A stretch of DNA of 43,152 bases. Origin: Nitrosopumilaceae archaeon. GTDB taxonomy: Archaea; Thermoproteota; Nitrososphaeria; Nitrososphaerales; Nitrosopumilaceae. Under the pieces are notes generated by a model that had not been told where the DNA came from, searched no databases, and saw only the letters and a list, made by a program, of their open reading frames with translations. The translations under genes and the position numbers were made by a program. Position 1 is the first letter of the stretch. The number at the start of each line of letters is the position of its first letter. Location: the NCBI GenBank assembly GCA_900620265.3, contig UYNY03000084.1, positions 1 to 43,152 on the forward strand, in the 5' to 3' direction. Shown here in pieces: positions 20,676 through 34,632 of this stretch.

Positions 20676-21428
20676 ATGGACATGGACGGCATGACGGCGC
20701 TCAGGGTCCACGTGGCGCCCCTCGGGTTCGAGGTCGACAGGATAGTCCTGCCGCTCAAAAAGACAAAGGCCGACAGGCTCTGGCTGATAATCCACGACAA
20801 CGTCGAGGAGTCAAGGGTGTCCGACACGTACCAGGAGAGGATCGAGAGGGCGTGCAAAAAGGAGGGCGTCGAGGTCGGGATCGGGCGGGCCGACAGGATG
20901 AGCCTCTTTGCGACCATCAGAAAGACGAGGGAGATCATAGAGGGGGAGGAGGGCAACTCCGTCTTTGTCAACGTCTCGTCCGGCTCCAAGATCCAGGCGA
21001 TAGCGTGCATGATGGCGTGCATGGTGCTCAACAGGCCCAACGTGCGCCCGTTCTACGCGGAGCCTGACAGGTACGCCGCGTTCGACGGCAAGCAGCAGTC
21101 GTTCGGGCTGAGGGACATGCACCGGCTGTCCACCTACGAGCTGCAGACCCCCAAGCCCAAGCTTCTAGAGGCGCTGCGCATAATCGCGTCCCAGGACGGG
21201 CAAAGGATAACAAAGAAGGAGATGGCCAGGCTGGCCGACGAGCGCGGGATAATAAAGGTGAACGCGTCGGTGGACAACTATTCGCAGGCCAGGTTCGCGA
21301 GCCTCGACAAGAACATCATCGCGCCGCTGGAGAGGGAGTGGGGGTTCGTGAGCGTCGAGAAGATAGGCAGGACGCGCTGGATAGGCATGACCGACGACGG
21401 CAGGAACGCGGCAGAGTTCCTGGCCTAG
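20676..21428 (+). CDS. CARF-like (HFX_2341/DUF6293-type) sensor with C-terminal winged helix
   Basis: A 250-residue protein. The N-terminal half has a Rossmann-like start ([19 protein letters not shown]), then [10 protein letters not shown] and [19 protein letters not shown]. The N-V-S-S-G-S-K element is equivalent to the ligand-binding motif of CARF domains that sense cyclic oligonucleotides. The C-terminal ~90 residues ([25 protein letters not shown]...[23 protein letters not shown]) form a winged helix. This architecture matches archaeal HFX_2341-family regulators. No CRISPR array or cas gene is in the window. ATG 20676 was chosen from the TATA spacing; ATG 20682 or 20691 are alternatives. 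It overlaps the convergent cupredoxin gene by 4 nt. Confidence 0.75.
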
Positions 21429-23023
21429 CGGACCGTTACGATGCCGGACGTCCACGGGTGCAGCGTGCAAAAGTAGCCGTACGTGCCCGGCTCCTCAAAG
21501 ACGGCCTCGAACGTGCCGAGCGGGCGTATGTGGCCGGACTGGAAGCTCCCGTCGGGGATCGGCGCCTTGCCGCCCACGATGGTATGCATCACGGAGTCGC
21601 CGTTGGTCCACGTCACGGGCGATCCGGGCGAGACGGTAACCTCGTACGGCTCAAAGCACGACCTTGACACCTCGCACCCGAGGGAGCCGGTACCGGCCGG
21701 TATCACGACGTCCGCCGGGCCCGGTGCGGCGGAGGGGCGCGGGGCCGGCTCTGGCTCAGGCGCAGTTTCAGGGGCAGGTTCAGGCGCCGGCTCTGGTTCA
21801 GGTTCCGGCTCGGGCTCCGGTGCGGGTTCGGGCTCTGGGGCCGGCTCTGGTTCAGGTTCTGGCTCGGGTTCGGGGGCAGGCTCTGGCTCCGGTGCGGGTT
21901 CGGGCTCTGGGACAGGCTCCGGTGCGGGCTCCATCTCCCCGGATGCGGCCACCACCGTGACGGATCCGACCATCCACGGGTGCACTATGCAAAAGTAGTC
22001 GTACGTGCCAGGCTCGTCATACGTGTACGAGAACGTGGCGTCCCCGAATATCAGGCCGCTGTCATAGAGCCCGTCGATCCCGGTCTCAAGGCTCCCGGCG
22101 GTCACCGTGTGGGCCGGGGCGTCCATGCTGGACCACTCGACCGTGTCGCCGGCGGATATGGTCAGCCGCGCCGGGACATAGCACTCGTCGTCGGCCTCGC
22201 ACCCGGGGACGGCAGTGCCGGCCGGAATCACCACCTCGTGTACGGACGGCGTGGCGGACGCGGATGGTTCGGGTTCCGGTGCAGGTTCGGGGGCGGGTTC
22301 CGGTGCAGGTTCCGGCTCTGGCTCCGGCTCTGGCTCCGGCTCTGGCTCCGGCTCTGGCTCCGGTGATGGCTCCGGTGCAGGCTCGGGCTCTGGCGCCGGC
22401 TCCGTAGCGGACATGGGCGGCGCGACCTCCCCCGCCATCGCGCTGCCGGCGCCCGCCGGCACAGAGTCGAGCACCGTCACGGTGCCGGTCATCCACGGGT
22501 GCACGATGCAGACATAGTCGTACGTGCCCACCTCCTCGAACGTGAACCCGAACACGTCGCCGGGCAGGAAGAGCCCGCTGTCAAAGACGCCGGTCTGCTC
22601 GGCCACGGATGAACCGGCCGTCACCGTGTGCGCCGCCGTGTCATCGTTGGTCCACTCGATCGTGTCCCCCGCCGCTATGGTGATCCGCGCCGGGTCATAG
22701 CACGAGTCGTCCTCCTCGCATCCCGGGAGCGACGTCCCCTCTGGTATCCCGACCGCGTGGATCACGGGATCCCCGGGGGCGGGGGGCTCGTGCGTCCCGG
22801 CGCACTCGCCGATGTGGGCAAGGCTGACGCCCGCCATATCGATCTTGCACATGTTCGAGTACGTCGCGCCGTCCACGCCGCAGACGGGGTCGTACTCCTC
22901 GGTGCACGACACGTCGGCAAAGAGGGGGCCGCCGGGCACCTCGTCCGGGGCGATCCCTATCAGTGCTATTGACACGGCGGCCAGCACGCCCACCGCAGCT
23001 ATGACGCCGTGCGCGAACTGCAT
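21425..23023 (-). CDS. Membrane-anchored Kazal plus triple plastocyanin-like cupredoxin protein
   Basis: A 532-residue exported protein. An N-terminal TM segment ([20 protein letters not shown]) is followed by a Kazal-like Cys module (C40, C48, C59, C74) and three cupredoxin domains separated by long Pro/Glu linkers. Type 1 copper ligands are H132/C172/H175/M178 in domain 1 and H305/C345/H348/M351 in domain 2. Domain 3 has H480/C519/H522 but Thr525 in place of Met (HPWT instead of HPWM). Each domain also has two extra Cys near its start ([10 protein letters not shown]-like). Probably carries electrons outside the cytoplasmic membrane, as expected in copper-based AOA respiration. ATG 23023 lies 1 nt after the HEAT gene stop; GTG 23032 is an alternative. 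Confidence 0.88.
21722..21931 (-). repeat. Pro-Glu linker coding repeat 2
   Basis: Simple-sequence coding DNA (GGCTCTGGCTCC-like hexamer and dodecamer units) encoding the ~70-residue P-E/P-A linker between cupredoxin domains 2 and 3. Prone to length change; not a CRISPR array. Confidence 0.8.
22259..22408 (-). repeat. Pro-Glu linker coding repeat 1
   Basis: A linker of ~50 residues between cupredoxin domains 1 and 2. Between about 22311 and 22365 the 12-bp unit GGCTCTGGCTCC is repeated almost perfectly. Confidence 0.8.
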
Positions 23024-23024
23024 C

Positions 23025-23513
23025 CTATCCACCCGTCAGCCTGGCAAACTTTTCGTTCTTGCTGAGCTTTTCCATGAACTCAATGTTGGAGAGGGCCACG
23101 ACTGCCGACTCGACGACCGGCTTTTCTGGATCCTCGAGCGCCCTGTTCAGTGCCTCGCGGGCCTCGGCCGAGCCCACCACGCCGAGCGCGACTGCCGCCT
23201 CGTGGCGTACGAACATGCTCGGATCACCGGTTGTCGCCTCCGCCAGCGGCCCCACGCAGCTCGAGTAGCACATCTGCCCCAGCGAGAACGCCGCCTCGTG
23301 GCGGACCAGCTCGTTCTCGTCGTCCTTTAGCACCCTGGCGACGTGCTCGACCTTGTCCTCGCCCCCAAAGTCCACCAGTATGCACGTGGCCCGGGTCCGG
23401 ACCACATAGTCCGGATGGTCCAGCAGCGAGACAAAATAGGCCGTGTCGTGCTTTTCGTACCTTGACTCCATCTCCGCGAATAGGGCCAGCCTGTCCTCGG
23501 TAACCGCCTGCAA
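23025..23513 (-). CDS. HEAT-repeat protein
   Basis: A 162-residue all-helical protein. About four HEAT/PBS-lyase-type repeats can be read, with the D-x-x-V-R-x-x-A-x-x-x-L-x pattern: [54 protein letters not shown] and [17 protein letters not shown]. Such repeats form protein-binding superhelices; no catalytic motif is seen. TTG 23513 lies 27 bp from a TATA-like box (23537-23545), consistent with a leaderless TTG start. It is followed without a gap by the cupredoxin gene, so the two are probably cotranscribed, and it may help assemble or regulate that protein. That link is inference. Confidence 0.8.
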
Positions 23514-26026: not shown

Positions 26027-26494
26027 GTGGCAGCCATTGCCGCCGCGGCCGCGTACTCTGCCGTCGGGGTGGCCGCGGCGCACCTTGTCGAGTACGGGTG
26101 GGCCGGCCCCTACGAGTTCTCGTTCTTCAACCTCTCAAACCACGGCACCGTCGAGTTCTGCAACAGGGTGCCCTTCTGGGCCGAGCACACGGGGTCGGTG
26201 TTCGAGCTGCACATAGGCGAGGAGGTGCTAGGGCAGTTCAGCACCGAGAGGGCCATCTTCGAGCCGCTCGGGAGGCTGGTCCAGGAGGGCAGGTTCACAA
26301 GCGAGCAGTTCCCGTACGCGCAGCACACAATGTCGACTGCGGACATCGGCCTCGAGCTGCCGGACTCGTTCGACGTGAACGAGATCAGGGTGATCCACAG
26401 GATGGGGACCAGCCTGCTGGGGTTCATCCCGTACCACGCCGAGCACGTGATGTCCGGATCGACGTTCTACGTGAGGATGTCAGAGCCCTGCTAG
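26027..26494 (+). CDS. Exported protein of unknown function
   Basis: A 155-residue protein with an N-terminal Ala-rich hydrophobic segment (AAIAAAAAYSAVGVAAAHLV) serving as signal or anchor, then a domain with YEFSFFNLSNHGTVEFCNRV, VFELHIGEEVLGQF and YVRMSEPC. The pattern suggests a beta-sandwich fold; two Cys (one near the start, one at the extreme C-terminus) could pair. GTG 26027 is the earliest ordinary start; the frame continues upstream through a CTG at 25994 that overlaps the preceding gene, so the true start may be a few codons earlier. Probably co-transcribed with 25365-25997. It overlaps the convergent gene by 4 nt. Confidence 0.65.
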   Translation: MAAIAAAAAYSAVGVAAAHLVEYGWAGPYEFSFFNLSNHGTVEFCNRVPFWAEHTGSVFELHIGEEVLGQFSTERAIFEPLGRLVQEGRFTSEQFPYAQHTMSTADIGLELPDSFDVNEIRVIHRMGTSLLGFIPYHAEHVMSGSTFYVRMSEPC

Positions 26495-27351
26495 AGGCGG
26501 TGGGCCCTGGCCGCTATGCCCAGCACGACGCCGATGATGCCGGCGCCGATGAACGCGACAAAGAAGCCGACGCCGAGGTCGCGGCCGAGCGTCCGCAGCG
26601 TTATGGGCTGGGCCGGCGCCTCTTGTATGACGCACTGCCCGTCCTTGAACACGGTGCCCGGGCCGCAGCGGTCGTCAAGCACGCAGGCGCCGTCACGCAG
26701 GATCGTGCCGGGGCCGCACTGGGTCGCGGTCGGGGCGGGCGCCGGTGCCGGCGCGGGTGATGGCGCGGGTGTAGGCGCAGGCGCGGGTGTAGGTGCCGGA
26801 GCTGGCGCCGGGGCGGGAGCTGGAACCGGCTCGGGCTCGGGTTCTGGCTCCGGTACAGGTTCGGGCTCCGGCTCGGGCTCTGCATCGGGGCACTGACTTA
26901 CGCCGGCAAGCGTGCTGCCGAATATCTCGATCTCGGCCGCCCCGGCCTGCACGTCAATCGACAGCATCCTCGCGGCGTCGGTCTTTTCACCCTCGGTCAC
27001 GGAGGACGGGTCGTCCTCGCCGTCCACAAGAATCAGGAACTCGCCGTCAAGGCCGCCGCAGCTCTCGTCAATAAGGGATCTTGGCAGCGTGAGATCCAGC
27101 GTGCCCCCGTCAGCGGCGTCAAGCATGAAGCGGAGCGAGATAAAGTCAAGGTCAAACTCGGTGCCCGTCACCGTGACATCGCCGGTAAACTCTACGTCGA
27201 ACGACTCGCCGTTGACGTCCACCGTGGTGGTCTCGGCGTACGCCGCGGCGAACCCGAGCCCGGCAAGGACTGCCAGCCCGAGCGATATCTTGAGGATCGC
27301 GCCCTGGCCCGGCAGGCGGATCTCCTCCTGGCGCCCCTCCGCTGCTATCAT
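26491..27351 (-). CDS. Exported, C-terminally anchored protein with Pro-rich linker and paired CGPGT modules
   Basis: A 286-residue protein. It has an N-terminal hydrophobic signal/anchor (ILKISLGLAVLAGLGFAAAYA), a ~110-residue beta domain (VDVNGESFDVEF...LDLDFISLRFML), a ~53-residue P-E/P-A/P-T linker, two tandem 12-residue modules C-G-P-G-T-(I/V)-(L/F)-(R/K)-D-G-x-C, and a C-terminal TM helix (VGFFVAFIGAGIIGVVLGI) with basic end. The surface domain would thus be held off the membrane by the linker. ATG 27351 was chosen over ATG 27357 because it lies 27 bp from the TATA-like box. Unknown function. Confidence 0.75.
   Translation of the reverse strand: MIAAEGRQEEIRLPGQGAILKISLGLAVLAGLGFAAAYAETTTVDVNGESFDVEFTGDVTVTGTEFDLDFISLRFMLDAADGGTLDLTLPRSLIDESCGGLDGEFLILVDGEDDPSSVTEGEKTDAARMLSIDVQAGAAEIEIFGSTLAGVSQCPDAEPEPEPEPVPEPEPEPEPVPAPAPAPAPAPTPAPAPTPAPSPAPAPAPAPTATQCGPGTILRDGACVLDDRCGPGTVFKDGQCVIQEAPAQPITLRTLGRDLGVGFFVAFIGAGIIGVVLGIAARAHRL
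26725..26883 (-). repeat. Pro-rich linker coding repeat
   Basis: Short GC-rich repeats (GGCTCCGG- and GGCGCGGG-like units) encoding the P-E then P-A/P-T linker. The style matches the linkers of the cupredoxin protein. Confidence 0.75.
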
Positions 27352-27372
27352 ACCCATGCCCCCGGATCGCCG

Positions 27373-27383
27373 CCTAAATAAGG
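27373..27383 (-). promoter_or_regulatory. TATA-like box of the gene at 26491
   Basis: Minus strand CCTTATTTAGG, a near-palindrome centred 27 bp before ATG 27351. Confidence 0.5.
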
Positions 27384-27393
27384 GGACGGTGGT

Positions 27394-27399
27394 AAAAAA
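27394..27399 (-). terminator. T-tract downstream of serA
   Basis: On the minus strand a run of six T (27399-27394), 35 nt after the serA stop, in an otherwise GC-rich spacer. Archaeal termination commonly uses such T-tracts without a hairpin. Confidence 0.4.
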
Positions 27400-32757: not shown

Positions 32758-33690
32758 ATGGGGGTGCCGTTGGATCTCCGGATAAGGGCGCCCGTCCTGC
32801 TAGCAGGCATCGGCGGGGCCGGCTCGCGCATGGCGGCGCTGATGTCAGAGGCGTCCGGGATCGACCACGTCAGCATCGGCAGGGGCGACCTCGGCGGCAG
32901 GCAGGCCCGCATAGGGACCGGCGGCGTGGTGAACCCGTCAGTGAGGCTGCTCAGGGCGGCCGCGTGCGGGGCCGAGGACCAGATAGAGGAGATGATGGAG
33001 GGGTACGGGACGGTCGTGATGGTGGCCAACCTGGCCGGCAAGGACGGGGCGGCGATAGCACCGGTCGTCTCCGGGATATGCTCAAGGACCGGCAGGGGCC
33101 CGGTATCAATAGCGGTCATGCCGTTCGGGTACGAGGGGGCGCGGCTATTCGAGGCCGGCATCGCCCTGCGCAGGCTCAGGGAGGGATCGGATGCCACGAT
33201 CGTCATCGACAACGACTCGATGATGCAGAGCAACCCCGACCTTGCGCCGGAGCAGTGCTATGATATCGCAGACTCTGCGGCAAGGCACCTTGCGTGCTCG
33301 CTCGGGTCGCTGGCCGAGGGCGGCACCGGGATACTGGCCGCCGGCAGGGCCGGCAGGGACGCCGAGGAGTCGCTCCGGGACGCGCTCCGCACGCTGTACG
33401 GGAGCGCCCCGCCCGGCTCTGTCAGGAGGTCGCTCCTGTATGTGATGGGCGGCGGGCTCTCTGCAGGCGCCATCGGGCGGATAACAGAGGTGGCAGGCGG
33501 CATGCTCGGGGGCGGCGGCCTGCACGTGGATCCTGCCGCGTCAGAGTCAGGGGTGGTGGTGCTGTCGGCCGTCCAGGGGGCCACAAAGTTTGACGGGTAC
33601 GACCCGCTCGGTGCCATCGGGCAGGAGCTTGACTGGGACGTGCCGGAGTGCAGCATCGACTGCGGGCTGCAGATGTACCAGATGGAATAG
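32758..33690 (+). CDS. Divergent FtsZ/tubulin-superfamily protein
   Basis: A 310-residue protein alignable by eye to FtsZ: GIGGAGSRM (17-25), the region YGTVVMVAN before the signature loop, PVSIAVMPFGYEGARLFEAGIALRRL (PFGYEG at 122-127), and TIVIDND (147-153). The tubulin signature GGGTGTG is replaced by AGKDGAA (93-99), so normal GTP binding or hydrolysis is doubtful. The C-terminal domain is short and lacks an FtsZ tail. Thaumarchaea divide by Cdv/ESCRT, and their FtsZ homologues are known to be divergent. Start uncertain: ATG 32758, GTG 32764 or TTG 32770; a T-rich TATA-like stretch (32740-32748) favours 32770. It converges on eL31 with a 5-nt gap. Confidence 0.82.
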   Translation: MGVPLDLRIRAPVLLAGIGGAGSRMAALMSEASGIDHVSIGRGDLGGRQARIGTGGVVNPSVRLLRAAACGAEDQIEEMMEGYGTVVMVANLAGKDGAAIAPVVSGICSRTGRGPVSIAVMPFGYEGARLFEAGIALRRLREGSDATIVIDNDSMMQSNPDLAPEQCYDIADSAARHLACSLGSLAEGGTGILAAGRAGRDAEESLRDALRTLYGSAPPGSVRRSLLYVMGGGLSAGAIGRITEVAGGMLGGGGLHVDPAASESGVVVLSAVQGATKFDGYDPLGAIGQELDWDVPECSIDCGLQMYQME

Positions 33691-33695
33691 TCCCG

Positions 33696-34472
33696 TCAGG
33701 GTTTTGCGTCTTTTGGATCGTCCTTCGGGTCTGGCGCGGGCCCGTCCGTCCGCGCGTCCTTTGGCGGATCGGCCGGCTCCTTTGGGGGATCGGCCGGCTC
33801 CTGCTTTGCTGTATCGGGCTTGTCGGCGGGCGCCGGCTTTTCGGCCGCCGGCGGGTCGGCCGGCTTTGGATCGGCCGGCTTTGCTGTATCGGGCTTGTCG
33901 GCGGGCGCCGGCTTTTCGGCCGCCGGCGGGTCGGCCGGCTTTGGCGGGGATCCGGGCTTTGGCGCGTCAGGATCCGAGCCGGGCTGCGTATCGGGATCGG
34001 GCCCGGCGGCCGGCGCGTCCTCAGGCTTTGGGGTTTCAGTATCAGGCCCGGTGGAAGGCTCGGCGGAGGGTGCGCCGTCAGGCTTTGGGCTTTCAGCGCC
34101 AGGTTCTGCAGAGGGGGCATCTCCAGGCGGGCCCTCTGCAGTTTCCTGCGCGCCGGCATCCGGCGCGACGGGCGCCGCGTCATCATCCCCGCCGAGCACC
34201 TGGCCCGGGACGAGGTCCCCGTCGTAGAGCGAGACCAGCGTGTCGCCGTCATCGGTCCTGCCGATCATCACGCGCACGCGGCGGGGCGGGCTCCGGGCAC
34301 CGCGGGCCCAGACGCGCCTTGCCAGGTCCTCGTCTATCTTTACCGCCTCGGTCCCGGCGTGGCGCCTTGCAAACTCGCGTATCATGTTTATCGCCCGGAC
34401 GGCCCGGTGCTGCGGCTGGGACAGCAGCACCTTGCCCAGGTTGATCGTGTGGATTCGCTCCTCGGCGGACAT
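33696..34472 (-). CDS. rpl31e: Ribosomal protein eL31 with long low-complexity C-terminal extension
   Basis: 258 residues. The first ~88 are eL31 (TINLGKVLLSQPQHRAVRAI, IREFARRHAGTEAVKIDEDL, then RVRVMIGRTDDGDTLVSLYD). The normal family protein ends about here. The remaining ~170 residues are acidic and Pro/Ala/Asp/Lys-rich (runs such as KPADPPAAEKPAPADKPDTA), with a 25-residue unit duplicated. There is no stop or frameshift between core and tail, and the tail reading frame stays open for 500 nt. The tail would protrude from the large subunit near the tunnel exit. ATG 34472 lies 1 nt after the eL39 stop, so they are coupled. Confidence 0.88.
   Translation of the reverse strand: MSAEERIHTINLGKVLLSQPQHRAVRAINMIREFARRHAGTEAVKIDEDLARRVWARGARSPPRRVRVMIGRTDDGDTLVSLYDGDLVPGQVLGGDDDAAPVAPDAGAQETAEGPPGDAPSAEPGAESPKPDGAPSAEPSTGPDTETPKPEDAPAAGPDPDTQPGSDPDAPKPGSPPKPADPPAAEKPAPADKPDTAKPADPKPADPPAAEKPAPADKPDTAKQEPADPPKEPADPPKDARTDGPAPDPKDDPKDAKP
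33803..33869 (-). repeat. 67-bp perfect direct repeat, copy A, in the eL31 tail
   Basis: Identical base for base to 33878-33944; spacing 75 bp, i.e. 25 codons in frame. Encodes the KPADPPAAEKPAPADKPDTA unit. Confidence 0.9.
33878..33944 (-). repeat. 67-bp perfect direct repeat, copy B, in the eL31 tail
   Basis: Second copy of the unit at 33803-33869, separated by 8 bp. Perfect identity including silent positions implies a recent duplication. Confidence 0.9.
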
Positions 34473-34473
34473 C

Positions 34474-34632
34474 CTAGCCTACCCCCGTGTGGGCCGACCG
34501 CCACGCCCTGCGCTTTGGGTTCGTCCGGACGCTCCTCTTGGTCTTTATGATTATCCAGGCGGGGACGGGCTCCGCCTGCTTTGCCTTCTTTATCAGCCTC
34601 ACCTTCCGGGGCGAGGACTTTCGCGCGGCCAC
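34474..34632 (-). CDS. rpl39e: Ribosomal protein eL39
   Basis: A 52-residue, very basic protein, GTG start at 34632: MAARKSSPRKVRLIKKAKQA at the N-terminus, then PVPAWIIIKTKRSVRTNPKR and RRAWRSAHTGVG at the end. This is the eL39 pattern (K-x-R-L-x-K-A-x-(K/R)-Q, then P-x-W-(I/V), then R-x-N-P-K-R-R-x-W-R). Located in the exit tunnel of the large subunit. A TATA box at 34653-34662 lies 21-30 bp upstream. eL39-eL31 is a normal archaeal pair. Confidence 0.92.
   Translation of the reverse strand: MAARKSSPRKVRLIKKAKQAEPVPAWIIIKTKRSVRTNPKRRAWRSAHTGVG

Follow-up and report, generated by a model that had tools for sequence, protein, structure and literature searches.

A long, low-complexity C-terminal tail, predicted to be disordered, on ribosomal protein eL31 of a Nitrosopumilaceae archaeon and its relatives

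The eL31 Gene and Its Neighbours

The window analysed here, the whole stretch of 43,152 nucleotides from a Nitrosopumilaceae archaeon (contig UYNY03000084.1 of a 113-contig draft genome, 64.5% GC), encodes the ribosomal protein eL31 on its minus strand (33696-34472; ATG start, 258 a.a.). Residues 5-80 match the NCBIfam entry for 50S ribosomal protein L31e (NF002258, 81.2 bits against a cut-off of 68) as well as PF01198 (56.3 bits, cut-off 25), exceeding both curated cut-offs. Upstream, on the same strand and after a 1-base gap, lies the gene for eL39 (34474..34632; PF00832, 60 bits; NF002316, 62.5 bits, just below the cut-off of 63), which has no tail; the eL39-eL31 pair is as expected for an archaeal eL31 and recurs in relatives (e.g., genome G017). 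The property that departs from the family is length, with 258 a.a. here against a typical archaeal range of about 85–105 a.a. Given that length is typical rather than defining, and that the extension lies outside the domain, the assignment to eL31 is unaffected.

The core domain comprises residues 1-83 (34224..34472, minus strand), as supported by the two profiles, the AlphaFold2 confidence values, and an alignment with relatives in which Tyr83 is the last core residue. It is followed by 175 in-frame residues (84-258), which together with the stop codon make up the acidic Pro/Ala/Asp/Lys tail (33696..34223, minus strand), recognised by its composition, its pLDDT, and comparison with relatives. 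Convergent with eL31, and separated from it by a 5-base gap, is a gene for a highly divergent protein of the FtsZ/tubulin family (32758-33690, plus strand), which scores 43 bits with the Pfam Tubulin profile (cut-off 33) and 57 with the NCBIfam ftsZ profile (cut-off 295).

Composition, Repeats, and Predicted Structure of the Tail

The tail consists of 48 P, 33 A, 29 D, 16 K, 14 G, 11 E, 8 T, 6 S, 4 Q, 3 V, 2 L, and 1 R, with 40 acidic (D/E) and 17 basic (K/R) residues giving a net charge per residue of -0.13. Its sequence entropy is 2.97 bits, compared to 3.92 bits in the core. Using Tandem Repeats Finder (TRF), we noted an exact tandem duplication of a 75-bp (25-codon) unit present in 1.9 copies (33803..33944, minus strand; 100% matches, score 284) and a 21-bp (7-codon) unit present in 2.2 copies (33757..33802, minus strand; 96% matches). 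By its entropy, its repeats, and its C-terminal position, the tail is a low-complexity segment at a ribosomal-protein terminus.

In an AlphaFold2 model built from 11 aligned sequences, the core is folded (pLDDT block means of about 75-92 over residues 1-80), and the tail, with pLDDT of 41-60 and no secondary structure beyond residue 82, is predicted to be intrinsically disordered. An earlier note, made from the letters alone, had described a disordered acidic P/A/D/K tail of ~170 residues, in frame, repetitive, and longer than the core, and the residue count, the TRF repeats, and the modelled disorder bear this out.

Distribution Among Ammonia-Oxidising Archaea

We sampled 200 genomes of the family and found an eL31 match in 173, where the open frame usually spans 120-280 codons. 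Residues beyond the core are present in all 94 distinct complete Nitrosopumilaceae eL31 proteins and number at least 30 in 91 of these (median 80 a.a., range 15-432), with three shorter tails of 15-20 a.a. The tail in our genome is the fourth longest of the 94, and those of two genomes of the same genus measure 187 and 193 residues, so we rejected the idea of a feature unique to this genome. The longest eL31, in G023 (L139), has 517 a.a. in total and a tail of 432; this tail is of an ATD / PEPEPPAA type with a basic, amphipathic-looking segment at its C-terminus (KKSGFLSRFRTRIAQPKPSEDEDQ). In the 0.8-Mb genomes of genus g5, eL31 tails of just 15-20 a.a. coincide with uL24 frames of 118-120 codons.

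Elsewhere in the order, tails have a median of 42 residues in f3, which we take to be Nitrososphaeraceae (14 genes), 25 in f2 (four genes), and 6 in f4, presumably the hot-spring family Nitrosocaldaceae (two genes), and one f5 member has 99. Outside the order, the median is 5 residues after the core in f7 (six genes) and 12 in 13 other members of the phylum. Given that f3, f2, and f5 are tailed and that f4, f7, and the others are short, the long tail is a trait of one side of the order, and it appears from these sequences to belong to mesophilic ammonia-oxidising archaea, Nitrosopumilaceae above all. The earlier statement that archaeal eL31 is normally under 100 residues thus holds outside the clade, where archaeal eL31 chains among the PDB matches listed have about 89-95 a.a. 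(none of these listed chains is from this clade). Charged low-complexity extensions of eL31 also occur elsewhere in the phylum, at the C-terminus in f8 and at the N-terminus in f7, f15, and f22; the long charged extensions of L205, L206, L208, and L212, from several other families of the phylum, are N-terminal rather than C-terminal.

About 90 related genes hold the same frame open, some of them in genomes with a GC content near 33%, in which 80 codons without a stop are unlikely to arise at random. This comparison with related thaumarchaeal eL31, which the earlier note had proposed, finds tails family-wide and excludes a stop near codon 90 hidden by a sequencing error. Of the recent low-complexity expansion that the note had also suggested, only a part stands: a recent origin of the whole tail is rejected, as every complete eL31 sampled from the family is tailed, although the exact 75-bp duplication does suggest that some of the length was gained recently.

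Most relatives have tails rich in K/E/P/A, while those of our genome, its two same-genus relatives, and several other GC-rich genomes are acidic; the tail in the Cenarchaeum-like genome G001, which we take to be Cenarchaeum symbiosum, is slightly basic despite this trend. Net charge per residue ranges from about -0.24 to +0.18 in the family and differs in sign between species; a function requiring an acidic tail is weakened by the many neutral or basic relatives. Hydrophobic and aromatic residues stay rare in tails from 27 to 77% GC. Per-gene GC showed no significant correlation with tail charge or with P, A, D, E, or K content, and, without correction for relatedness, a weak one with tail length (rho 0.31, p = 0.003).

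The eL31 tails of genus g3 (L247:1018-1710, L248:976-1710, L249:1456-1929) contain a module, LADFVDPKKGTQHYIDRYNKEKKYKAWFDKNFPNLTIEEAVGL, that is about 45 residues long. The module also occurs, often in tandem, in proteins of the family with signal-peptide-like and membrane segments (L251, L252, L254-L258), and a further protein that carries it (L250) has a charged tail. It was not seen in other eL31 tails; no Pfam family scored above cut-off with it, and a PDB search gave nothing convincing.

In one relative, G092 (L141:480-1040; a one-contig assembly), a frameshift removes most of the tail. A single base that differs behind six consecutive A shifts the frame after 'ETKK', and eL31 ends at 104 a.a., with eight identical 30-bp repeats intact behind the frameshift. 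Either the tail was lost recently, or the sequence contains an error, or the A run is a slippage site; a one-base back-slip on the AAAAAA would restore the tail frame.

Selection on the Tail

Using the Nei-Gojobori method on 46 independent closest gene pairs, we obtained a dN/dS of 0.078 for the core and 0.407 for the tail, the latter being alignment-dependent, as is any dN/dS over repeats. The tail value was 0.36 for the first 25 residues and 0.43 for the remainder, 0.37 when only pairs with at most 10 gaps were used, and 0.44 with a nucleotide alignment, and it lay below 1 in 37 of the 43 usable pairs. Neutral simulations with the same codons gave 0.88 (minimum 0.76) at a kappa of 1.25, estimated from fourfold sites, and 0.62 (minimum 0.52) at a kappa of 6, with the observed value lower still. 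The same alignments read in the two wrong frames gave 0.62 and 1.47, and composition may therefore explain some of the reduction in the tail.

With the tail retained in 94 distinct family members at a dN/dS of 0.41, we conclude from these comparisons that it is translated and weakly constrained. As length, sequence, and sign of charge vary freely, the constraint seems to fall on a hydrophilic, disordered make-up rather than on any of these.

Other Ribosomal Proteins

We compared the ribosomal-protein clusters of this genome, about 27 proteins, with those of four others, one of which (G244) is tail-less. Long C-terminal additions in this genome are confined to eL31, uL24 (+148), and uS3 (+103 to 107), with none in about 24 others. 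The uL24 tail (G000:C113:29887 onward) is acidic here, with 148 residues; uL24 tails recur in Nitrosopumilaceae (19-157 a.a. in the sampled loci) and vary in sign, being basic in most AT-rich and acidic in most GC-rich species. In uS3 (L181:9785-10684), the added acidic segment has about 100 residues, and a terminal charged stretch is common to relatives. An apparent uL22 tail in Cenarchaeum-like genomes was discarded as merely a stop-to-stop length, the aligned protein having no tail.

Both eL31 and uL24 lie beside the tunnel exit in the archaeal ribosomes known so far. Tails occur in two of seven tunnel-rim proteins and one of 20 others, an enrichment that is suggestive but falls short of significance (Fisher p = 0.16). 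We also rejected a co-variation in tail length between eL31 and uL24, as the correlation between frame lengths is absent once four extremes are omitted (rho 0.02). Elsewhere in the window, we noted two minus-strand genes for other proteins with linkers, a secreted-looking protein (21425-23035) with repeated copper-protein-like segments and long EPEPEP linkers of 12- and 24-bp repeats, and a membrane-anchored-looking protein (26491-27399).

Possible Role of the Tail

Yeast eL31 belongs to the second universal adapter site, which serves exit factors, and contacts NatB (PMC10118133); it is also contacted by the RAC subunit Zuo1 (PMC7083937). Judging by where eL31 sits in other ribosomes (PMC10118133), its tail would be exposed on the ribosome surface. 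We lean, by a little, towards the view that the whole clade carries a disordered brush or tether at the tunnel exit, placed there because eL31 sits at the exit rim, its presumed position on this ribosome too, and that in-frame growth of repeats has made it longer here. On this reading, the gene makes an ordinary eL31 whose C-terminal extension is translated and predicted to be intrinsically disordered. The extension gains and loses length by in-frame tandem duplication and has in this way reached 175 residues in this species, P/A/D-rich compared to K/E-rich in most relatives, with selection apparently maintaining its hydrophilicity and disorder. Together, the eL31 and uL24 tails may form a flexible hydrophilic surround to the exit that would reduce the unspecific contacts made by nascent chains or ribosomes and would offer loose docking to exit factors.

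Several observations favour such a brush or tether: tails are family-wide, their dN/dS is 0.41 (0.08 in the core, 0.88 in the neutral simulation), few ribosomal proteins carry them, disorder is predicted, charged eL31 extensions have arisen independently, eL31 and uL24 are short together in g5, and yeast eL31 contacts exit factors. Against it count the changes of charge sign in both proteins, the lack of an eL31-uL24 length correlation, the frameshift in G092, the non-significant rim enrichment (p = 0.16), the EPEPEP-type linkers in other proteins of the same genome, the alignment dependence of dN/dS over repeats, and the shifted-frame value of 0.62.

The main rival, which we consider possible, is that the eL31 C-terminus faces solvent and that repeats there vary almost without effect, giving a translated but functionless tail whose length and composition track mutation and GC drift. 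The exact repeats here and the eight identical 30-bp units surviving behind the G092 frameshift are what tolerated slippage would leave, as are lengths of 15-432 a.a., charges of either sign, short tails in the reduced g5 genomes, and other repetitive linkers in this genome. However, the tail dN/dS of 0.41 lies well below the neutral 0.88 and under the simulated minimum even at a kappa of 6, retention in the family is near-universal, hydrophobic and aromatic residues remain rare across the whole GC range, and just 3 of about 27 ribosomal proteins are affected. A more elaborate proposal, in which the lineage-specific eL31 and uL24 tails form one shared disordered brush around the exit, with a role in handling nascent chains or in tethering ribosomes, and in which the envelope-type module gained by the g3 tail may dock some of these ribosomes to a specific partner, strikes us as rather unlikely.

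The recruitment of factors to the nascent chain, as the earlier note had it, could also be specific, with short tail motifs binding a defined factor such as archaeal NAC, SRP, or its receptor. This we regard as improbable; eL31 is a factor-binding site in eukaryotes and the g3 tail module is common to surface proteins, but sequence, charge (-0.24 to +0.18), and length vary freely, the g3 module was not seen in other eL31 tails, and no conserved terminal or repeated binding motif was found across the family tails, as judged by eye. What survives of the suggestion is a general tether, with which the tail dN/dS of about 0.41 is compatible, though it does not prove it. Lastly, that a frameshift, missed stop, or assembly error created the extension can be dismissed for practical purposes: the assembly of a 113-contig draft might conceivably have introduced the exact 75-bp duplication by mistake, but such an error could alter the copy number by about 25 residues and could not create the tail, and some 90 independent genes, many of them in genomes assembled as one contig, have equivalent tails.

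Comparison with Known Systems

Ammonia-oxidising archaea are among the most abundant marine microbes, and archaeal ribosome models from other groups miss parts that they have. We found no paper in the open-licence literature searched on the eL31 tail of these archaea, and likewise none on that of uL24, and within that literature both appear to be undescribed so far. A clade-wide tail on a tunnel-exit protein, weakly selected yet unconstrained in its sequence, provides a natural test case for whether disordered tails on the ribosome surface do anything.

The nearest comparison for how such a tail might work, and for that only, is the archaeal/eukaryotic stalk protein P1, a flexible charged tether of the large subunit. 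P1 ends in a conserved factor-binding peptide, unlike the eL31 tails, in which no conserved end motif was seen. Low-complexity C-terminal regions are known on prokaryotic ribosomal proteins, with archaeal L12, L10, S24e, and S3 named in the passages and table of a survey that we consulted and eL31 and uL24 not among the proteins named there (PMC6821194). The eL31 tail resembles these regions in being C-terminal, of low complexity, and built from few residue types on a ribosomal protein; it is far longer than the archaeal average of 36 a.a. given there, and P and D are abundant in it. A long lineage-specific extension is also found on eukaryotic eL31 (PDB chains of trypanosomatid type, 169-188 a.a.), but at the N-terminus. 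Other archaeal eL31 proteins (PF01198 / NF002258) share the same core and the eL39 neighbour, and the difference lies in what follows the core, about 5-12 residues in theirs and 175 here.
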